Shown here piece after piece: positions 3,018-16,851 of a DNA stretch of 38,282 nucleotides. The DNA is from Bacteroidales bacterium. Its GTDB lineage: Bacteria > Bacteroidota > Bacteroidia > Bacteroidales > UBA932. The first letter of the stretch is position 1; each line of letters starts with the position of its first letter. The stretch spans positions 1-38,282 of the forward strand of contig JAFPGC010000008.1 in NCBI GenBank assembly GCA_017423025.1, read 5' to 3'. The notes under the pieces are model-generated. The model made no database searches and was not told the DNA's origin. It saw nothing but the letters and a program-made list of their open reading frames with translations. Both the position numbers and the translations under genes were made by a program.

Positions 3018-4475
3018 ATGAAGAAGATCCTGTTTGTTGCCCTTGCCGCCCTTCTGGCATCTTGTGCAAAAGCCCCCGAGGTTAGCTACAAAATCTGGTA
3101 TGACTGGCCGGAGAGATACCTCCCCGACTTCTCCACCCTGGGAGAACCGGATTTGCAGGGAACCAAAATCAACCTGGACCTGGAGGAAATCGACGACCAA
3201 AAGAACCATTTCTGCGTCCTGTTCGAGGCTCCCTTGAAGGTGAACAAGGAGGAAGAGTACGCTTTTACCCTTACCACCGATGACGGAAGCAAGTTTTACA
3301 TTGACGACGAGCTCCTCATAGAAAACGACGGAGCCCATGGCCCCATCGAAAAGAAAATCTCCAAGGTCCTGGCCAAGGGAGAGCATCGGCTCAAAATCGA
3401 ATTCTTCGACTTTGACAAAGGCCAGACCCTTACCTTCAAGTATTCCACCCCTACCATCCAGGAAAGGGAATACAACAACGAGGTCTTCAAGAAAGAAGAC
3501 AAACTCACCAGCAAACACAAGTATGTCAAGCCTCAGGTGAAAGAGGCCCTGAAGCGTTATCAGGCGTGGAAAGGGGAGGACGAGACCCTGGTGTTCCCCA
3601 TCATTACCGACGTGCATACCGGGCAAAGGTTCTCCTACAAGCACGTGGGCTATGCCGCCACGGCCGGCAAGTTGTTTAAGGCCGATTTTATGGCCAACCT
3701 GGGTGACATCGGCCTCAATTCCTATCCCGCTACGGTGGATTCCGTCTATGCGCGCTATATCCTGGATAAGACCAGGGCGGGCATGTTCATGTACAACGGA
3801 ATGTGGCTCTATTCCCCCGGCAATCACGACTGGGACGGCGGTGGCGGAAAATGGCTTACGGAGGATTTCCTGTCCGACTTTTTCCAGAAGCCCTGGGAAG
3901 CCAAGGCAGGCGGAAACCTGCACCTTACTCCCGGAAGAACGTACGGCTATTATGATATTCCGGCCAAGAAATTCCGGATTATTTTCCTGAACAGCGAATC
4001 CAGCCGCACCAAAGGGGAGTTCTACTATTCCTACGGCGACGAGCAGCTGGAATGGCTGGCGGGTATTCTGGACCAGACCCCGGCCGATGTGCAGGTGGTC
4101 CTCCTTTCCCACTGGATGCCCCATTCCCTGGGCGTCTGGAATGCGGTTTCCATGAACCCCATCAAGAAGGAAGATCCCTCCAAAATCATGAACCTCCTGA
4201 CCTCCTACCAGGGCAAAGGGAATCTGGTGGGCCTGTTCACGGGTGATACCCACGTGAACTTCCACCGGGTAGTGGATGGTGTAAACTACTTTGTATCACA
4301 GGGATACGGATGGGTAAGCCCGGACGTGATGGTTCCCGGACAGAAACACGCGTTCTTCGACTACAGGGAAACCCTCTGTATAGATGTAGTAGCGGTGAAA
4401 CCGGCCAAGCGCGAGGTCCATACCTTCCGCATAGGCGCCGGCGGGGCCGATTTTGACACCTGCTTCCCCTATTGA
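3018..4475 (+). CDS. Lipoprotein with PA14 domain fused to a calcineurin-like metallophosphatase
   Basis: This encodes 485 residues. A lipoprotein signal ends in LLASC (Cys about 16). Residues 22-150 read like a PA14 domain (YAFTLTTDDGSKFYIDDELL, then GEHRLKIEFFDF). The second half is a metallophosphoesterase with the full metal set: D198-x-H200 (TDVHTG), GD at 229-230, GNHD at 268-271, SHW near 370 and GDTH at 409-412. PA14 modules often bind sugars, so the enzyme may be held on a glycan-bearing substrate. Substrate is unknown. It lies 24 nt behind the GH3 gene. Its stop is 4 nt from the convergent ispF stop, with no terminator between them. Confidence 0.85.
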   Translation: MKKILFVALAALLASCAKAPEVSYKIWYDWPERYLPDFSTLGEPDLQGTKINLDLEEIDDQKNHFCVLFEAPLKVNKEEEYAFTLTTDDGSKFYIDDELLIENDGAHGPIEKKISKVLAKGEHRLKIEFFDFDKGQTLTFKYSTPTIQEREYNNEVFKKEDKLTSKHKYVKPQVKEALKRYQAWKGEDETLVFPIITDVHTGQRFSYKHVGYAATAGKLFKADFMANLGDIGLNSYPATVDSVYARYILDKTRAGMFMYNGMWLYSPGNHDWDGGGGKWLTEDFLSDFFQKPWEAKAGGNLHLTPGRTYGYYDIPAKKFRIIFLNSESSRTKGEFYYSYGDEQLEWLAGILDQTPADVQVVLLSHWMPHSLGVWNAVSMNPIKKEDPSKIMNLLTSYQGKGNLVGLFTGDTHVNFHRVVDGVNYFVSQGYGWVSPDVMVPGQKHAFFDYRETLCIDVVAVKPAKREVHTFRIGAGGADFDTCFPY

Positions 4476-4961: not shown

Positions 4962-5756
4962 TTAGAACTTAAAGGTGTAGTTGATGCCCACGTTCACTCT
5001 GAACTGATCTACGTAGGCGGCCTTGAACAGCCGGGTTCCTTCGGCGTTGGTGTCAATCACGTAGGGAGAGTAGAAGTCTATCAATGCGTACGGCTTCAGG
5101 ACATGATGCTGGCTTAGCTTGATATCGGTCCGGAAGATGAAGCGGTAGCGGTCGTTGTACACGTGTGTGTAGCCCGTGGGCGTATAAACGTAGTACGTGG
5201 TGCCGTCATCCTTGGTCTGCATGCCACCGTTGGTCTCGCCCCAAGGGGCGTTCAGCTGGGTGCGCAACTCAAAGAACACACCGGGCTCAAAGTAAGTCCA
5301 TCCCTTGTATTCCACTCCTATGCGACTCTTGAGGGCAAAGGCGTCAGGGGTATTCTGGTACGCGTTGAAGGTGCCCGTGCGATGGGTGTACTGGCCCCGC
5401 TCCCTGAGGGAGAAACTGAAATGATTCCAGGTGAAATGGCCCGTAGCATCCACGAAAACGCGGTGGCGGGGTGCCTTGAAGGAGCGATCAACATAAGAGT
5501 AGGAGTTGATGAGGGAATAACCCACTCCAATTTTCAGGAACTTGAGGGGCTTGTAATCCACACCTACCGTGGTCTGGAGCCGGTTCAGGGACTGGAACGC
5601 ACCGCTGATGCGCACCTCTTCCTCCACATTTACGTGCAGGCCTTTCCTGATTTTGTAATCGGCCGCAACGGAAAAGCGGGCGCCTCCGCTGATTTCGGTT
5701 TGGGCGGCGGCGGCCAGCGGCAGCAGAAGGGCCAGGGTTAAAACGAACTTTTTCAT
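4962..5756 (-). CDS. DUF2490-family predicted outer-membrane beta-barrel protein
   Basis: This is 264 residues with a signal peptide (MKKFVLTLALLLPLAAAAQ). The mature part alternates aromatic and polar residues in short strands (YKIRKGLHVNVEEEVRISG, LRERGQYTHRTG) and ends in NVGINYTFKF, with the terminal Phe typical of barrels inserted by the BAM machinery. The pattern fits DUF2490. The start overlaps the DUF4956 stop by one base. As the predicted outer-membrane member of this operon, it may export or display whatever the VTC/DUF4956 pair makes; that is inference. Confidence 0.8.
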   Translation of the reverse strand: MKKFVLTLALLLPLAAAAQTEISGGARFSVAADYKIRKGLHVNVEEEVRISGAFQSLNRLQTTVGVDYKPLKFLKIGVGYSLINSYSYVDRSFKAPRHRVFVDATGHFTWNHFSFSLRERGQYTHRTGTFNAYQNTPDAFALKSRIGVEYKGWTYFEPGVFFELRTQLNAPWGETNGGMQTKDDGTTYYVYTPTGYTHVYNDRYRFIFRTDIKLSQHHVLKPYALIDFYSPYVIDTNAEGTRLFKAAYVDQFRVNVGINYTFKF

Positions 5757-6547
5757 TATTCTACGTAGTCTTTTGCTCGGGTTATCATATTCACGGAGTT
5801 GTGTTCCCCTTTGGCCAGAGGATAGGAAACCTTGATGAATGCGGCATCCTTCAGGAAATCCACATGGCCGATTTCCACGTTCTCCACCTTCACGCCCAGA
5901 CGTTTCTCCAGATCGGCCAGCAGTTCTTTCCGCTTTTCGGGAACGATGAGGTCGATCTTGTCGTACAGCACCAGCTTGGTGGTGGTGTGCCGGACCAGGC
6001 TTTCGCTTTCCAGGATGGCCACCAGGCCCACGACGAGGGCATTTACCAGCGCCATCACCCCCACATTACCCCAGCTCAGGGCATAGTGCGGGGCCGATGT
6101 CTGCAAATCCTCCACATGATAGACGGGGGCCAGGCCATTGGCTGCGGCCAGGGCAATGATTACGAACAGATAGGTCATTTCCCGGATGGGCACCGTCTCC
6201 GTACGGTAACGGATGACCCCGAAGATGGCGAACAGACCCAAGGTTAGTCCCACGCCCACCTCTACGTTGCCCATAATGTAGAGCAGCATAAGCATGGCCG
6301 ATGAAAACACCATGAAGGTGAAATAGTAGTCGCGGCGCTTGCTCTTGCGATAGTAGAAACAGTGCACCAGAATCCAGCATACCAGAAGGTTCAGGCCGAA
6401 GCGGATGCCCAGTTCGGCCACCTTCTGGGGGATGGTCATCATGGCGTCTGTGAGGGTTTGCACGTCCAGGAGCATGTCGTCTGCAGCGTCCAGGTCCCCG
6501 AAGGAGGCCAGGTCTTCCTGAACGAAACGGAATAACTTATCTATCAT
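5756..6547 (-). CDS. DUF4956 inner-membrane protein, partner of the VTC-domain enzyme
   Basis: This is 263 residues with four or five predicted membrane segments in the first 190: around FGLNLLVCWILVHCFYY, TFMVFSSAMLMLLYIMG, VGVGLTLGLFAIFGVI, YLFVIIALAAANGLA and GVMALVNALVVGLVAILES. The motif RYRTETVPIREMTYLF between segments is highly patterned and may be a cytoplasmic or re-entrant loop. A soluble C-terminal domain (about 195-263) reads like a small alpha/beta fold. DUF4956 proteins commonly neighbour VTC-domain proteins, and here the start overlaps the VTC stop by 4 nt (ATGA). Function is unproven. Confidence 0.85.
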   Translation of the reverse strand: MIDKLFRFVQEDLASFGDLDAADDMLLDVQTLTDAMMTIPQKVAELGIRFGLNLLVCWILVHCFYYRKSKRRDYYFTFMVFSSAMLMLLYIMGNVEVGVGLTLGLFAIFGVIRYRTETVPIREMTYLFVIIALAAANGLAPVYHVEDLQTSAPHYALSWGNVGVMALVNALVVGLVAILESESLVRHTTTKLVLYDKIDLIVPEKRKELLADLEKRLGVKVENVEIGHVDFLKDAAFIKVSYPLAKGEHNSVNMITRAKDYVE

Positions 6548-7341
6548 AGAGTTTCCAGTTTTTTACCAATGGTTTTTTCAATGGCCCTCACCTTTACCTT
6601 GAACCGGCCGCTCTTGGCCTGGGGGTCCGTCAGGGTGATGCCTATGCAATATTTACTTACGCGGACGGGCTTGATCCGGTGCTCCAGGAAGATGCCTCGC
6701 ATGGCGCTCCGGGCCCGGCCGTCCTGTTTGAGTTCAATAATCACCGCGTCCTGCAGCGTGGTTTCCCGGCCGGTCCGGAAGTTCTTGAACCGCAGCCGCG
6801 TGTCTATGGTCAGGCGCTCCGTGAGGCTGGGGTTAACCAGGGTGATGCGAGTGAACGCCGTTTCCAGCGACCGGGCCAGTTCCGGTTCCGTGAACCACGA
6901 ATGCCTGGCCAGGTAGGCGCAGGCCTCCGGATTGCCGGAAAAGCCGTTCATCTGCTCCAGCGGAAGGCCGATGCGCTTTTTGCTGGTGCGCCCGTGGTTG
7001 TTCTTCCGCTTGATCTCCAGATAAGCCTCGCCGGAGCGCACATAGCAGCGGGTCCGTACCTTCTGGCGTACCAGGCGCCGGTTGTGATGGTCGTAAAACA
7101 TCCGCAGCCCGGGCGTGTCAAAATACATCGAGTCGTAAGGACTCTCCCGTTCTCCTTCCGTCACCAACACCCGGTAGCCGGCTGCGGCGGCATCGGCCAG
7201 GACACCGCGCAGCGTAGCTTCGTTGGTGAGGAACTTGGCGTCGATGCGGTTCATCAGCTTTACGGATTTCATTTCCTCCAGCGTAATGGGTTGCATCTGG
7301 TCCAAATCCCGGGTGAAGGAGATATGATCCATCTCTGGCAT
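6544..7341 (-). CDS. VTC-domain polyphosphate polymerase-like protein
   Basis: This is 265 residues from the ATG at 7341. The VTC fold, a triphosphate-tunnel relative, is supported by the opening ITLEEMKSVKLMNRIDAKFL, then SMYFDTPGLRMFYDHHN, and the tunnel motif EIKRKNNHGRTSKKR with alternating acidic and basic residues, followed by TRLRFKNF and VIIELKQDGRA. In yeast VTC the tunnel makes polyphosphate from ATP. Bacterial versions without SPX domains are little characterised. The start is ambiguous: a TTG at 7350 overlaps a -7 box, so ATG 7341 or 7332 is more likely. The start lies 38 nt after the DUF4353 stop, so co-transcription is likely. Confidence 0.85.
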   Translation of the reverse strand: MPEMDHISFTRDLDQMQPITLEEMKSVKLMNRIDAKFLTNEATLRGVLADAAAAGYRVLVTEGERESPYDSMYFDTPGLRMFYDHHNRRLVRQKVRTRCYVRSGEAYLEIKRKNNHGRTSKKRIGLPLEQMNGFSGNPEACAYLARHSWFTEPELARSLETAFTRITLVNPSLTERLTIDTRLRFKNFRTGRETTLQDAVIIELKQDGRARSAMRGIFLEHRIKPVRVSKYCIGITLTDPQAKSGRFKVKVRAIEKTIGKKLETL

Positions 7342-7347
7342 ATCTTG

Positions 7348-7355
7348 CAAAGATA
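7348..7355 (-). promoter_or_regulatory. -7 box directly upstream of the VTC gene
   Basis: The reverse strand reads TATCTTTG, ending 6 nt before the ATG at 7341. If used, it would give an internal promoter and an almost leaderless VTC mRNA. No good -33 partner is seen, so it could be chance. Confidence 0.4.
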
Positions 7356-7379
7356 ATGATTTTCTTGGGATTATTAAGG

Positions 7380-9122
7380 TTACCAGCCGGGGCCGCCCAT
7401 TCCCGGACCGCTGTTGCTGCCGGAGTAAGAGCTCAGAGAAACACTGCTGCCTCCGCTCATCGTGCCGTCCACGACTCCCATTCCCTTAAAGATTTCGGTT
7501 CCGCCGGCCACGCTCACATTGGACTTGACTGCGGGCTGGGAACTGCCGGACACCACCAGGCCGTTGCCGCCGCTGGTGGGGGTGAAGAAGGCGTAAGTAT
7601 TATCACCCACTGTCATGGAATACCATTTCTTAGTGGTCCAGGAGCCGCTGTAGCACTTCTGGCTTATGACAGCCCCGCTCTCCAGGCCGCCCAGGGCAAA
7701 GAGGGTTCCGCCATTCACGTAGAGCTTATAACGCTCCTCGGTGTTGGCGTCTATGGCCACTTCGGGGGATCCGCTGCCAATGGCGTAGACCACGCCGCCG
7801 TCCAGGTAAAGGTTTTTGTTGGCATCCATGCCGTCGTTGCCGGTAGAGTAGGCGCATATAAAGCCGCCGGTAACGGCCATCACTCCGGCCGAATTGATGG
7901 CGTCGTCCTTGGATTGGGCGAAGACAGCGCCGCCGGTGATTTGAAGCTGACCCTTGGACTCGATGCCCTCGTGGTTGGAGGCCTTGGCGCTCACGCTGCC
8001 GCCGGAAATGTAGATGTCGCCGTCGAACTTGATGCCCTTGGCGCTCTTGGAATTGTCGCTGGAAGAGGAACTGCCGCCGCCCCAGGGGCCGAAGCCGCCA
8101 GAGGATTTGCCGTAATTGCTGCCGGTTACGGTGATGTCCACCGTGCCCCCTTGGAAGTAGGCCACGCCATCTCCGCTGATGCCCTTTCCGCCCTGTCCGG
8201 AATTGGTAATGGTGAGGGTGCCGTCGTTCATCACGAAGCACTGATCGGCCTTGACGCCCGCGGATGCCTTGTATTCCTGGTCCTCGTCGTCATAGTCCGT
8301 ACCGCCGGTGACGGCCACCGTGGTAACGCCGCCGTTGAACACCACCAGGCTGTCGGACACAATGCCCTTTTTCATATGGGCCGATGTCTGTACGCTCAAA
8401 TTGCCGCCGTTCACATAGACGGCATCCTTGCCGCGAAGGCCGTGCCCTGCGGTAGAGGAGATCTTGAGGGTGGGGCCGTCCAGGAAGTTGAGGTAGTCGT
8501 CAGAGGTGATGCCGGCTTTGCCCACCGCCGTCACCTCCAGCGAGCCTTCTCCGCTGAAGATGAGCTGGCCCTCGGAGAAGAAGGCCGCCTTTTCGTCTTC
8601 GTCATCCGGCGTAGCGGTGTAGGTGGAGCCATCGGCCAGATAATTCTTACCGTTCACCACCACGAAACTGCGCTTTTTGCCTTGGTTGTTGATGGCGGCG
8701 CCGTTGGGATTGGTGATGGAAACATTGTTCAGCACCAGGGCCTGCTTGTTTTTGGAATAAATCTTAAAGAAACCGTTGGAAGTGGTTCCGGACAGCTCGT
8801 AGCGTACTTTTTCACTGGTGGCGGTGTTGTCCACCGTCACTTGGTTGCCTTTCACGGTCACAATGCCGTTCTCGTCGCCGGTAACCTTGGCGTCGCCGGT
8901 GTTGGAAAAAGAGATGGAGATGGTCCGGGAGAAAGTGGTTCCCGCAATGAGGTCTTCCTCATCCAGATTAACCGGGATAGTAGTGGAACCCGTAATTCCG
9001 GAGGTGCTTCCGCCCTCTTCGGTGTTTTCGTTCCAGGGGTCGTCGGAGATGATGTCATCTTTGTTGCAGCCTGCCAGGGCCAAGCCCGTCAGCAGGATAG
9101 AAATACTAACTGTCCTTCTCAT
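7380..9122 (-). CDS. DUF4353 (Cthe_2159-like) beta-helix lipoprotein, predicted polysaccharide-binding
   Basis: This is 580 residues. The lipoprotein signal ends in LALAGC (Cys19), followed by an acidic, Ser/Thr/Gly-rich linker. Most of the protein is built of repeated short strands with turns of the type GKAGITSDDYLNFLDG, GHGLRGKDAVYVNGG and KGIVSDSLVVFNGG, the hallmark of a right-handed beta-helix with Asp-rich, probably calcium-binding turns. This fits the carbohydrate-binding DUF4353/Cthe_2159 family. A Gly/Ser loop (GGFGPWGGGSSSSS) interrupts the helix, and the tail ends GPGMGGPGW. It is the first gene of the leftward operon, with 130 bp separating it from the divergent Na/Pi transporter gene. 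I find no clear TAnnTTTG box for it. Confidence 0.85.
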   Translation of the reverse strand: MRRTVSISILLTGLALAGCNKDDIISDDPWNENTEEGGSTSGITGSTTIPVNLDEEDLIAGTTFSRTISISFSNTGDAKVTGDENGIVTVKGNQVTVDNTATSEKVRYELSGTTSNGFFKIYSKNKQALVLNNVSITNPNGAAINNQGKKRSFVVVNGKNYLADGSTYTATPDDEDEKAAFFSEGQLIFSGEGSLEVTAVGKAGITSDDYLNFLDGPTLKISSTAGHGLRGKDAVYVNGGNLSVQTSAHMKKGIVSDSLVVFNGGVTTVAVTGGTDYDDEDQEYKASAGVKADQCFVMNDGTLTITNSGQGGKGISGDGVAYFQGGTVDITVTGSNYGKSSGGFGPWGGGSSSSSDNSKSAKGIKFDGDIYISGGSVSAKASNHEGIESKGQLQITGGAVFAQSKDDAINSAGVMAVTGGFICAYSTGNDGMDANKNLYLDGGVVYAIGSGSPEVAIDANTEERYKLYVNGGTLFALGGLESGAVISQKCYSGSWTTKKWYSMTVGDNTYAFFTPTSGGNGLVVSGSSQPAVKSNVSVAGGTEIFKGMGVVDGTMSGGSSVSLSSYSGSNSGPGMGGPGW

Positions 9123-9188
9123 AGTTTTAAAGGTTTTAAATACACGTCAGGTTCCCCATAAATCAAAAATGCGGCCAAAACAGAAAAG

Positions 9189-9233
9189 GGCCGAAAAAAA
9201 TTTTTTCCGATTGGCCGATTTGTTCTATCTTTG
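9189..9233 (+). promoter_or_regulatory. Promoter and candidate operator between transporter and lipoprotein genes
   Basis: TATCTTTG at 9226-9233 is a -7 box 19 nt before the ATG at 9253. Upstream lies a near-palindrome, GAAAAAA-A-TTTTTTC (9193-9207), bracketed by two direct GGCCGA copies (9189-9194 and 9213-9218) spaced 24 bp. OmpR/PhoB-type domains usually bind direct repeats about 10-11 bp apart or multiples, so this is a possible site for the transporter's own winged helix. That role is inference; GGCCGAT is frequent throughout the window. Confidence 0.45.
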
Positions 9234-9252
9234 TATTGGTAAAAAATGGCTT

Positions 9253-11211
9253 ATGCTAATCGTTCTTAAACTTCTAGGCTCCATCGCCCTCCTTATATAT
9301 GGTATGAAGGTGATGAGTGAAGCCCTCCAGAAGATGGCCGGTCCTCAACTCCGACACCTGCTGGGCGCTATGACCACCAACCGTTTTACCGGTGTCGCCA
9401 CCGGTGCTTTGGTTACCGTCGCGGTCCAGTCTTCTGCCGCCACCACGGTTATGACGGTTTCTTTCGTCAACGCCGCCCTCCTAACACTGGCACAGGCCAT
9501 ATCCATCATTATGGGTGCTAACATCGGCACTACCATGAGTGCCTGGATCATGTCGGCTGGCTTCTCTTTCAACGTGACCAATCTGGTATGGCCCGCCTTC
9601 CTGGTGGCCATCATCATGATTCAGACGGGAAAACACCGCTATATCGGTGACTTCCTCTTCGGCCTTTCCTTCCTGCTCTTCGCCCTGGGCATGCTCAAGC
9701 AGACGGGTACGGAAATGGATCTGGCCAGCAAGCCCGCCGTCGTGGCGTTCTTCGCCAGCTTCAAGACCAATTACGTCACCATCCTGCTGTTCCTGCTCAT
9801 AGGCTCCGTCCTTACGGCTTTGGTTCAGTCATCGGCCGCCCTTATGGCCATTACCATGGTGCTTTGCTCTACCGGTGCCATTACCATCTATCAGGGTATC
9901 GCCCTGGTGATGGGTGAAAACATCGGCACCACCCTTACGGCCAACCTCGCCGCCATGAGCGCCAACGTACAGGCACGCCGTACAGCCTTGGCCCACCTGG
10001 TATTCAACGTGTTCGGCGTCATCTGGGTCCTCATTTTCTTCTTCCCCTTCGTGAGGATGGTCTGCGGTATCGTGGGTCTGGATCCCACGGCCGAAAGCCA
10101 GTCGCCCATCCAGCTTTCCTTTGCGCTGGCGGCTTTCCATACGGCCTTCAACCTTATCAATACGGCCATTCTCATCTGGTTCATTCCGCAGATTGAGAAG
10201 TTGGTATGCCTGCTCATCGTTCCCCGCAAGGAAGAGAAGGAGGACGAGTTCCGTCTGCAGTTTATCAAGTCCGGTATTATGAAGACGCCGGAAATCTCCA
10301 TCCTGCAGGCCCAGAAGGAAATCGATGTGTTTGGAGAGCAGATGCAGCTTACCTTCGGCCTGGTGAAGGATCTCTCGCAGGCGAAGGAGGATGACGAGTT
10401 CAAGAAGATCTTCGACCGCATCGAGAAGAACGAAGACCTGAGTGACCGCATGGAGAAAGAAATCGGCCTGTATCTGGGACAGGTGGGAGATGCCCACCTC
10501 TCGGACGAGTCCAAGGAAAAGCTCCGCGCCATGCTCCGCCAGATTGGAGAACTGGAGTCTGTGGGCGACAGCTGCTACAACCTGGCCCGCATCCTTTCCC
10601 GCAAGCGCGACCACAAGGTGGTGTTCACGGAGCAGCAGGAGAGCAACATCATCAATATGTATGCGCTGGTTGACGCTGCCCTCACCCAGATGAATGTGGT
10701 CCTGAAGGGTCCCCGCGAGGAGAACAACATCACCAAATCCGAAGAAATTGAGCTCCAGATCAACGGTTTGCGCAACCAGCTCAAACGCGAGAATATCGTG
10801 GATCTGGACAACCACACCTACGATTACGAGAACGGAACGGTATACATGGATCTCATTTCCGAGTTCGAAAAGACGGGCGACTATGTCATCAATGTGGTGG
10901 AAGCTCGCCTGGGTGTGGTTCGCAACAGCCTGCGCTTCAAGGGCGTCCAGCTGGACACCGACGGCAAGCGCGTGATGGTGGACGGCGAGACGGTTCCTTT
11001 CCCCAAGACGGATTTCGAGATGCTGCGCCTGTTCATGGAGAATCCCAACAAGGAATGGGCCCGCAAAGACTTCCTGGAGGCCTTCTGGCCCGACGATCCC
11101 CTGGCCACCTCCCGCACGGTTGACGCCGCCGTCACCCGCATCCGCCGCAAGCTGGGTCCCTACGGCGAGGCCCTGGTTGCCCGCGGCGCCGGATATGTGT
11201 TCCAGGAATAA
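9253..11211 (+). CDS. Na/Pi cotransporter (NptA-like) with PhoU-like domain and C-terminal OmpR/PhoB-type winged helix
   Basis: This is 652 residues. Two PF02690-type repeats carry the signature QSSA motifs (Q59-A62 and Q192-A195), each followed by a Gly-rich segment (GANIGTT, GENIGTT) within about eight membrane helices. Residues about 335-555 are a helical PhoU-like cytoplasmic domain. Residues 560-652 match Trans_reg_C: a strand-rich start (LRFKGVQLDTDGKRVMVDG), PKTDFEMLRLFMENPN, ARKDFLEAFWP, recognition helix SRTVDAAVTRIRRKLG (620-635) and the wing ARGAGYVF. NptA-like proteins usually stop after PhoU (about 560 residues). The start at 9253 is chosen because it follows the -7 box and opens the first membrane helix. 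The frame is unbroken from start to stop. Confidence 0.9.
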   Translation: MLIVLKLLGSIALLIYGMKVMSEALQKMAGPQLRHLLGAMTTNRFTGVATGALVTVAVQSSAATTVMTVSFVNAALLTLAQAISIIMGANIGTTMSAWIMSAGFSFNVTNLVWPAFLVAIIMIQTGKHRYIGDFLFGLSFLLFALGMLKQTGTEMDLASKPAVVAFFASFKTNYVTILLFLLIGSVLTALVQSSAALMAITMVLCSTGAITIYQGIALVMGENIGTTLTANLAAMSANVQARRTALAHLVFNVFGVIWVLIFFFPFVRMVCGIVGLDPTAESQSPIQLSFALAAFHTAFNLINTAILIWFIPQIEKLVCLLIVPRKEEKEDEFRLQFIKSGIMKTPEISILQAQKEIDVFGEQMQLTFGLVKDLSQAKEDDEFKKIFDRIEKNEDLSDRMEKEIGLYLGQVGDAHLSDESKEKLRAMLRQIGELESVGDSCYNLARILSRKRDHKVVFTEQQESNIINMYALVDAALTQMNVVLKGPREENNITKSEEIELQINGLRNQLKRENIVDLDNHTYDYENGTVYMDLISEFEKTGDYVINVVEARLGVVRNSLRFKGVQLDTDGKRVMVDGETVPFPKTDFEMLRLFMENPNKEWARKDFLEAFWPDDPLATSRTVDAAVTRIRRKLGPYGEALVARGAGYVFQE

Positions 11212-11288: not shown

Positions 11289-11362
11289 TGAGATATGGTG
11301 TAATGGTAGCACTACAGATTCTGGCTCTGTCAGTGAGGGTTCGAGTCCTTCTATCTCAACCA
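11289..11362 (+). tRNA. tRNA-Gln (CTG anticodon)
   Basis: A full cloverleaf folds by eye: acceptor TGAGATA/TATCTCA, D stem GTGT/GCAC, anticodon stem ACAGA/TCTGT with loop TTCTGGC (anticodon CTG), and T arm GAGGG-TTCGAGT-CCTTC. Discriminator A is at 11359 and CCA is encoded (11360-11362). Confidence 0.95.
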
Positions 11363-11395
11363 AAAATCAGCCTCTATCAAGCTGATTTTTATTTT
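11363..11395 (+). terminator. Terminator after tRNA-Gln
   Basis: AAAATCAGC (11363-11371) pairs perfectly with GCTGATTTT (11381-11389), followed by a T-rich tract. It separates the two tRNA genes, so tRNA-Met may rely on readthrough or its own promoter. Confidence 0.75.
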
Positions 11396-11406
11396 GACTG
11401 AATGAT

Positions 11407-11480
11407 GGCGGGGTAGCTCAGCTGGTTAGAGCGTCGGATTCATAATCCGGAGGTCGTGGGATCGTGACCCACTCCCGCTA
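11407..11480 (+). tRNA. tRNA-Met (CAT anticodon), probably elongator
   Basis: Acceptor GGCGGGG/TCCCGCT, D arm GCTC...GAGC, anticodon stem TCGGA/TCCGG with loop TTCATAA (anticodon CAT), T stem GTGGG/CCCAC. CCA is not encoded (ACGA follows). The T loop reads ATCGTGA, with A54 and T58 instead of the usual T54 and A58. A tRNA-Ile with modified CAT is not excluded, but the body looks like Bacteroidetes tRNA-Met. Confidence 0.9.
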
Positions 11481-11657
11481 CGATTAAAAAATTAGGGGAG
11501 CAGCCCCCTAAAACCCCCGCGGCCTATTTGCCTTTCCGTTTTTGCGGAGCAAAAACCCGGCCCGGCCGCCCGCCTGCAGGCGGGTTCGCTTCGCGAAGAA
11601 GTATACAACATATGCGTGCAGATTAGTACGTACCCTGCAAGCAACCTCGAGATACAC
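11481..11657. other. Gene-free, hairpin-rich stretch behind tRNA-Met
   Basis: No credible gene lies here. It has four inverted repeats in close order: TTAGGGG/CCCCTAA (about 11491-11510), GTTTTTGC-GGA-GCAAAAAC (about 11538-11556), the palindrome CCCGCCTGCAGGCGGG (about 11569-11584) and TTCGCTTCGCGAA just behind. It looks like intergenic debris or a small structured transcript. I found no duplicate of the tRNA 3' end that would mark an integration site. Confidence 0.5.
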
Positions 11658-15783: not shown

Positions 15784-16851
15784 TTAGTCCGTAGCAAATA
15801 TAGCAATAATATCGTTACTTTTCAGGGTGGACTGCATAGTCTGGTAATCGGCCGGGTCCCTCCAGTAGGAGGAAGGAAGGGTGATGGGTACGGCGGCGTA
15901 AGAATTCTCGATCATTCCGGGTTTGGTGCACCAGAGGAGGTCCATCTGGGGCGGAAGCATCGTCGGCTCTTCGCCAAAGCGGAGTACGTACCGGAGCGTG
16001 AGGGCGGCTTCCAGACGGGCGATGTAGTCGTTCTGGTTGGACAGGGCGTTGCCCAGGGAGTAGTATACGGGAACGCCGTCTATCCACTGCATGTCCTGCA
16101 CTACGTGCGGGTGCGAGCCGATGATGGCATCGGCCCCTTCCGAGACCAGCCAGCGGGCCAGGCTTTCCTGCTGGTCACTGTGCCGGGTTTCATACTCGAC
16201 GCCCCAGTGCGGGAAGACCAGGATGATATCGGCCTTGGCGCGGGCGCGGGCCATCACGGGGGCCAGGGCCTCGCGGCTCATGCGGTGCACCTTGGGCCAA
16301 TGGACGGCCGATCCGGAGTTGGTGCCGTAGGTGAAGTTCACCAGGGCCACGCGTATGCCCTTGACAGACAGGATGAGGGGGTTCAGCAGCGTATCTGCCC
16401 GGGCCGATGCCGCCGTCCCCGTGTACAGGATGCCCATGTCTTCCAGTTGGCCGATGGTCCGGGAGAGCCCCTGGTGGCCCTTGTCCAGGACGTGGTTGTT
16501 GGCGGTCAGGAGCACGTCGAAACCTACGTCGGAAAGGTATTGGGCATAGGATTCGGGGCCGGAAAAGACGGGATAGCCGGTGTAGGGCTTTCCGGCCAGC
16601 GGGAATTCCATGTTGCAGACGGCTACATCGGCCTTCCGGATGTTTCCTTCCACGTGTTTGAAGAAATCTGAATACCCGTAGACGGAGGCACTTTGGACCA
16701 CCCGGCCGTGCGCCAGGATGTCTCCCATCAGATAGAAGGTGAGGGTATCGGCCTTGGGCGTTACCGTCCAGTACTCTTTAGGAAAACGAATCCACTGCGA
16801 GAAACCCTGCAGCGGAATCAGAAGAAGCAAAATGACTAGCAGACGCCTCAT
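15784..16851 (-). CDS. CapA-family metallophosphatase-like protein, exported
   Basis: This is 355 residues with a signal peptide (MRRLLVILLLLIPLQGFSQ). The CapA/PgsA signature is complete: GDILAHG (43-49, metal-binding), VAVCNMEFPLAG, VLLTANNHVLDKG, VFPHWGVEYE and IIGSHPHVVQ. CapA relatives belong to the calcineurin-like phosphoesterases and have been linked to poly-gamma-glutamate capsule synthesis, but this protein has no CapB/CapC neighbours, so that role is not supported here. Its start overlaps the stop of the YkvA-like gene by one base, so the two share a transcript. Confidence 0.9.
   Translation of the reverse strand: MRRLLVILLLLIPLQGFSQWIRFPKEYWTVTPKADTLTFYLMGDILAHGRVVQSASVYGYSDFFKHVEGNIRKADVAVCNMEFPLAGKPYTGYPVFSGPESYAQYLSDVGFDVLLTANNHVLDKGHQGLSRTIGQLEDMGILYTGTAASARADTLLNPLILSVKGIRVALVNFTYGTNSGSAVHWPKVHRMSREALAPVMARARAKADIILVFPHWGVEYETRHSDQQESLARWLVSEGADAIIGSHPHVVQDMQWIDGVPVYYSLGNALSNQNDYIARLEAALTLRYVLRFGEEPTMLPPQMDLLWCTKPGMIENSYAAVPITLPSSYWRDPADYQTMQSTLKSNDIIAIFATD

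Follow-up and report, generated by a model that had tools for sequence, protein, structure and literature searches.

How transport becomes a signal for transcription in the Pho system, along the path from the transporter to PhoU, PhoR, and PhoB, is a long-standing question. In E. coli, the pho boxes are direct repeats with an 11-bp phase. ToxR and CadC have an N-terminal winged helix, a single membrane span, and a periplasmic sensor, and CbrA-type proteins are transporters that are joined to a histidine kinase. NptA proteins are known with or without a C-terminal PhoU domain (PMC13170248). In Staphylococcus aureus, loss of the PhoU domain of NptA raised the expression of nptA at intermediate but not at excess phosphate, and the PhoU domain of NptA is listed among the regulators of PhoPR activation, with PitR as the dominant one (PMC13170248). 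Membrane transcription regulators are widespread, and one of them, Rsp from Neisseria gonorrhoeae, joins the receptor part of PilS to the DNA-binding domain of PilR (PMC10269533).

We analyzed a 38,282-nucleotide stretch of DNA from a Bacteroidales bacterium (the window). It makes up contig C81 in the draft genome G000 (2.39 Mb in 88 contigs, 87% complete). It contains a gene for an NptA-type transporter that continues, behind its PhoU domain, into a PhoB-type DNA-binding domain (Table 1). We propose that this phosphate transporter is its own transcription factor: it would have arisen by fusion from nptA-phoB-phoR, it would read phosphate through its PhoU domain, and it would bind at its own promoter. 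We give this proposal a probability of roughly two in three. The fusion, its spread, its conservation, the selection on its winged helix, the kinship of this domain with PhoB, the separate-gene operon that still exists, and the promoter repeat in many relatives were all computed directly.

Table 1. The fusion gene and the features around it in the window.
Feature	Position	Strand	Basis
Divergent neighbors: Cthe_2159-like, VTC domain, DUF4956	5756..9122	-	Family search; the proposal of VTC as a target is unsupported
Intergenic region between the Cthe_2159-like gene and nptA; TTAMRAW direct repeat absent	9123..9252	.	Upstream reading, genome-wide pattern scan
TATCTTTG	9226..9233	+	Kept in three aligned relatives (alignment)
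nptA-wHTH fusion gene, 652 amino acids: transporter, PhoU, and PhoB-type DNA-binding domain	9253..11211	+	ORF, Pfam, relatives
Membrane part of the Na/Pi cotransporter (residues 1-325), in two halves that carry QSSA and GxNIGTT motifs	9253..10227	+	Pfam, hydropathy
PhoU-like domain region, residues 326-555	10228..10917	+	Pfam PhoU 4.2e-07
PF00486 (Trans_reg_C) winged helix at residues 578-650; no other was found in the genome assembly	10984..11202	+	Pfam
Recognition helix region RTVDAAVTRIRRKLG, residues 621-635; diverged from RTVDVNITRIRKKIG of box-bearing relatives	11113..11157	+	Helix comparison

In Pfam, the 652-residue protein matches Na_Pi_cotrans in two stretches (1.5e-53), PhoU in two stretches (4.2e-07), and Trans_reg_C (PF00486) at residues 578-650, where all 77 positions of the model (1-77) are covered and the match is above the cut-off (3.6e-13). 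It thus has both features of an NptA-type protein, two Na_Pi_cotrans repeats with QSSA and a C-terminal PhoU domain, as well as the full-length winged helix of OmpR/PhoB regulators. The receiver domain of those regulators is absent: there was no Pfam match to Response_reg anywhere in the protein. A sequence-only reading had described a single unbroken frame with QSSA at residues 59 and 192, a PhoU-like domain, and a complete OmpR/PhoB-type winged helix, and it had made the last of these depend on a search of the tail against PF00486. All of this held up, with an open frame, both motifs at those residues, and a significant PF00486 match in a domain that is also conserved and under purifying selection (see below). 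The relatives support the ATG at 9253 as the start; the frame itself is open upstream to a GTG at 8818. Among solved chains, those nearest to the C-terminal tail are the DNA-binding domains of E. coli PhoB (1gxp, 7.6e-12). The tail's nearest NCBIfam profile is that of the Bacteroidetes PhoB (NF053854), of which it matches positions 130-225 of 225, with the receiver half absent, at 82 versus 270 bits, which is well under the family cut-off. No segment beyond residue 330 exceeded the hydropathy threshold, so the PhoU domain and the winged helix are probably cytoplasmic.

In the literature (open-licence full texts), we found no description of a PhoB-type domain on a phosphate transporter. CbrA-type proteins are similar in that they combine a transporter with a signalling domain, but theirs is a kinase and not a DNA-binding domain. 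Having a DNA-binding domain and membrane spans in one protein, the fusion protein has the makeup of a transmembrane transcription regulator in the broad sense, and it may regulate transcription from the membrane. It has in common with ToxR/CadC-type and other such proteins (PMC10269533) the placement of the DNA-binding domain on a membrane protein and the one-component logic. It is not of the ToxR/CadC type, as its winged helix is C-terminal (578-650), its membrane part is a multi-span transporter, and a PhoU domain lies between the two. Rsp is alike in that a two-component pathway was shortened by joining a membrane input to the regulator's DNA-binding domain, but its input is the receptor region of a kinase instead of a transporter with PhoU (PMC10269533). 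The NptA of S. aureus has the same transporter and PhoU parts but ends after PhoU and has a separate kinase and regulator, whereas the fusion protein carries the regulator's DNA-binding domain itself (PMC13170248). Finally, PhoB, including the Bacteroidetes PhoB (NF053854; B. fragilis PhoRB, PMC3547664), is like the fusion protein in its winged-helix family and its phosphate context, and a direct repeat with an 11-bp phase, the geometry of a PhoB site, is present at 18 of 53 fused genes but not in the window's genome; where PhoB has its receiver domain, the fusion protein has the transporter.

The fused protein is present in at least 57 of 400 genomes from the same genus (including G312, whose match stops at residue 609 at the end of a contig, and G109, whose match begins at residue 84). 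Six genomes have two fused copies (G003, G080, G101, G164, G410, and G073). Among 80 named loci, 36 are fused and 44 are unfused; these are the loci that came closest to the fused query out of 580 relatives (from genome_contigs, mostly drafts of Bacteroidales from the ruminant gut), so fused genes are enriched in this set. A search for the architecture across the Bacteroidales, which the sequence-only reading had suggested, gave only two cases outside the genus among the matches listed. One is G784, from another Bacteroidales family, which was the single fusion from outside the genus at the level of the order (393 genomes, E up to 1e-60), and the other is L183, from a record titled Prevotellaceae, which branches outside the main group of the transporter tree (80 named loci). 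At the level of the phylum (395 genomes, E up to 1e-100), the window's genome alone was fused. Since the assembly behind the window is a draft in 88 contigs, an error of assembly or a frameshift might be suspected, and a frame break near 10,925 had been named as something that would undo the fusion. But the same unbroken junction in the 57 or more genomes of the genus and in the 36 named loci rules this out, and we consider the chance of an artefact to be negligible. We also note two unfused NptA matches that lie within open frames of 652 and 715 amino acids (G424 C159 and G1077 C120, respectively).

The probable source of the fusion is a set of adjacent genes. In five genomes (G016, G076, G081, G266, and G181), nptA, phoB, and a gene for a phoR-like kinase are separate and lie next to each other in this order, and a family search of the phoB/phoR pair from G016 found that its PhoB has a Response_reg receiver domain. 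In a tree of 49 fused and 42 regulator rows, the fused winged helices form three groups, which lie among PhoB domains from this genus. A single common origin was not rejected (p-AU of 0.7 with 24 fused rows held together versus 25 regulators, in a 49-row set), so there may have been one fusion event; a few events are also compatible. (The window's own row is absent from both winged-helix trees and is represented by L082 from G309, whose winged helix is 91% identical; the copy from G784 is in neither tree.) The transporter tree (119 rows) requires 17 changes of the fused label, and at least 10 of these are forced by well-supported branches. Read alongside the winged-helix tree, these changes look like mostly repeated losses of the domain, which would hence be dispensable in many species. 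Examples of unfused loci that seem to have lost it are L068, L069, L070, and L072. We looked behind seven unfused genes for a remnant of the winged helix: none was recognizable in six of them, and the seventh (G016) has an intact phoB. In G012 (C66) and G022 (C42), a phoB-phoR pair is divergent to a more distant paralogue of nptA (L073 and L074), so the linkage of phoB and nptA recurs in another form.

Where the winged helix is kept in the window's clade, it is under purifying selection. In all three pairs of this clade (G000, G309, and G230), dN/dS is 0.08 for the winged helix, as compared to 0.08-0.16 for PhoU and 0.06-0.11 for the membrane part. Between clades, the evolution of the winged helix outpaces that of the membrane part, and dN/dS reaches about 0.95 in distant pairs (among the 60 least diverged).

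Upstream of fused genes, we noticed a direct repeat with an 11-bp phase, for example TTAAAAT-TCTG-TTACAAT. An exact match to the pattern TTAMRAW-N4-TTAMRAW, which we set after these sites had been seen, precedes 18 of 53 non-redundant fused genes and 1 of 55 unfused genes (within 160 bp upstream; at the fused genes, it lies at about 80 bp). (These genes derive from 166 places, of which 13 were dropped as truncated, and near-copies were removed from the other 153.) The one unfused gene with an exact box heads the nptA-phoB-phoR operon of G016, where three half-sites are in tandem. As for the 35 fused genes without an exact box, some of them lie directly behind another gene, as judged by eye. 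In G003 and G410, one of the two fused copies has a PhoB-like recognition helix and the box, and the other copy, which starts immediately behind another gene, has a diverged helix and no box. If we accept a box with at least 13 of the 14 positions, then it is present at 19 of 23 fused genes with a PhoB-like recognition helix (RTVDVNITRIRKK type), at 0 of 30 fused genes with a diverged helix, and at 2 of 55 unfused genes, versus 0.4 of 53 for letter-shuffled upstream regions of fused genes. On the tree, the helix type changes 4 times and the box changes 5 times, with two well-supported independent pairs, which is too few for a test of significance, so few independent events underlie the association of helix and box.

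This small number of events could also mean that the repeat is the site of another regulator and that its association with the fusion is historical, and 4 of the 12 box-bearing fused genomes (G054, G073, G164, and G410) do have further PF00486 matches. However, the other eight (G003, G271, G280, G323, G206, G043, G236, and G044) have no PF00486 match besides their fused copies, and the same repeat heads two of the four nptA-phoB-phoR operons with a readable upstream region (G016 and G076), so we consider another regulator to be quite unlikely. No box was found at the other two operons (G081 and G266; best 10 of 14 positions). The position of the box would suit an activator site upstream of a promoter: in 16 of 17 fused sites, the end of the box is 33-36 bp from a TAnnTTT promoter element, which was not found in the other one. 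In G016, this distance is 46 bp. Generic direct repeats with a period of 8-13 bp did not separate fused from unfused promoters (this comparison and the distances are based on 54 fused upstream regions, including those of the gene fragments L055 and L057, whose upstream regions are wrong).

In 15 genomes (12 that were picked for a boxed fused gene, along with G016, G076, and G000), there are 18 occurrences of the exact box with a G ahead of its second half-site. Fourteen of these occurrences are in front of nptA (12 fused genes and those of G016 and G076), and a reversed control pattern had 3 matches in the same genomes. With up to two mismatches to the commonest form of the box, there were 10 sites in 8 genomes, of which 8 front a fused gene. 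The gene of the transporter itself is thus the visible target, and in many relatives the fused protein probably binds its own promoter. We had considered a larger regulon in the box-bearing species and rejected it, as most sites with zero or up to two mismatches are in front of nptA. At the extra sites in G044 (two), G073, G016 (C1), and G003 (C28), we saw no phosphate gene by eye. G044 has a second perfect box (C55:25620) where a permease-like reading frame ends, about 2.8 kb upstream from the box that belongs to the fused gene.

The box evidence fits a tethered and a released domain alike. The winged helix might act as a soluble factor that is released by a protease or translated from an internal start, in which case the membrane part would regulate its release only. 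But the frame is continuous in the fused copies, with no internal stop, and only a short linker separates the winged helix from PhoU, so a soluble factor seems rather unlikely to us.

Of the 57 fused genomes, 42 have exactly as many PF00486 matches as fused copies (in G000, which is 87% complete, the fusion's winged helix is the only match); the other 15 have more, and these extra proteins could bind the box there. A PF00486 match is present in 153 of the 343 other genomes (Fisher p = 0.009 with kinship ignored; some of the 343 may be fused themselves, as the fused set consists of the matches listed). Kinases as such are not missing, as 20 of the 21 genomes tested, including fused ones, have HisKA-type kinases. 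PstA was above the cut-off in just 1 of the 20 genomes of the genus that were tested (G266), as compared to 13 of 14 control genomes. The other 19 have matches below the cut-off, with best scores of 25 to 57 bits; given matches in all 20, a diverged Pst system is possible. NptA may be the main phosphate importer in these genomes.

As to how the protein might work and how it came about, we infer DNA binding, its dependence on phosphate, the direction of control, binding while anchored in the membrane, and the order of the evolutionary steps, as follows. An ancestor with adjacent nptA, phoB, and phoR would have gained a transporter whose PhoU domain continues straight into the DNA-binding half of PhoB. 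PhoB's receiver domain would have been lost, and this circuit would no longer have needed the kinase PhoR. The PhoU domain would read the occupancy of NptA by phosphate, or the flux through it, and would expose or align the winged helices of transporter oligomers. These would then bind the direct repeats with an 11-bp phase that lie upstream of the protein's own promoter, and binding would raise (or, less probably, lower) the expression of nptA when phosphate is short. By analogy, it is most likely that PhoU passes the state of the transporter straight to the winged helix and bypasses both PhoR and the receiver of PhoB; the effect of the PhoU domain of NptA in S. aureus is in line with NptA-PhoU acting on the two-component system.

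A more detailed version, to which we would give slightly worse than even odds, is that importer, PhoU flux sensor, and PhoB domain form a phosphate pathway in one polypeptide; that the boxed relatives bind their own promoter from the membrane, at nearly the only exact match to the site; and that the window's branch has moved to a new site via a changed helix. The hosts of such a pathway seem to mostly lack PstSCAB and often to lack any other PhoB-type regulator as well. If so, then one protein in bacteria of the gut and rumen may do the work of a transporter, a sensor kinase, and a regulator. A two-component system may have shrunk to a one-protein circuit within a single genus, in which separate-gene, fused, and apparently trimmed states coexist. 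With PhoU fused to the DNA-binding domain of PhoB, the kinase would be skipped, and the step from PhoU to output could be reduced to one gene and one promoter.

For the species of the window itself, the canonical box had to be rejected as the site, as a scan of the G000 genome for the exact pattern did not find any copy. When we compared the promoters from G000, G230, G309, and G019 by eye, they had only the promoter region itself in common, including TATCTTTG, which is probably the -7 promoter element of nptA (going by the Bacteroidota consensus). Either the domain has a new site in this species or it binds no DNA, and the selection on it favors a new site. The alternative is that the winged helix is kept as an allosteric or oligomerization part of the transporter, and the diverged recognition helix, the absence of the box from G000, and the repeated loss of the domain elsewhere would all fit this. 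We nevertheless doubt it and give it a small chance, as all three species of the clade (G000, G309, and G230) have the same helix (RTVDAAVTRIRRKLG), the dN/dS of the domain is low, and the helix has arginines 629 and 631 in common with the PhoB-like one.

The sequence-only reading had proposed that the protein would be best suited to controlling nearby DNA, such as the region that faces the VTC operon. The first part of this fits the pho-box-like repeat in front of the protein's own gene in many relatives; the VTC operon as its target found no support. Cthe_2159, VTC, and DUF4956 genes do adjoin the fused nptA in G000 and G230, and in G309 the VTC gene is about 3 kb away (Cthe_2159 was not found in the stretch that we examined). 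However, they also adjoin nptA in G019, where it has no winged helix; neither VTC nor DUF4956 had a match in 29 other loci that we examined, some of them short; and there is no recognizable site. We therefore think it very unlikely that the fusion protein regulates these divergent genes, and they are not likely to be the reason for the fusion. One locus (L111) has a partial Cthe_2159-like match about 7.6 kb from nptA. On its other side, the fusion gene is followed by genes for tRNA-Gln (ctg) and tRNA-Met (cat), at 11289-11481 of the window. Farther away, the window also encodes a protein with PA14 and calcineurin-like phosphoesterase domains (3018-4475) and a PGA_cap capsule-synthesis-like protein (15784-16851).
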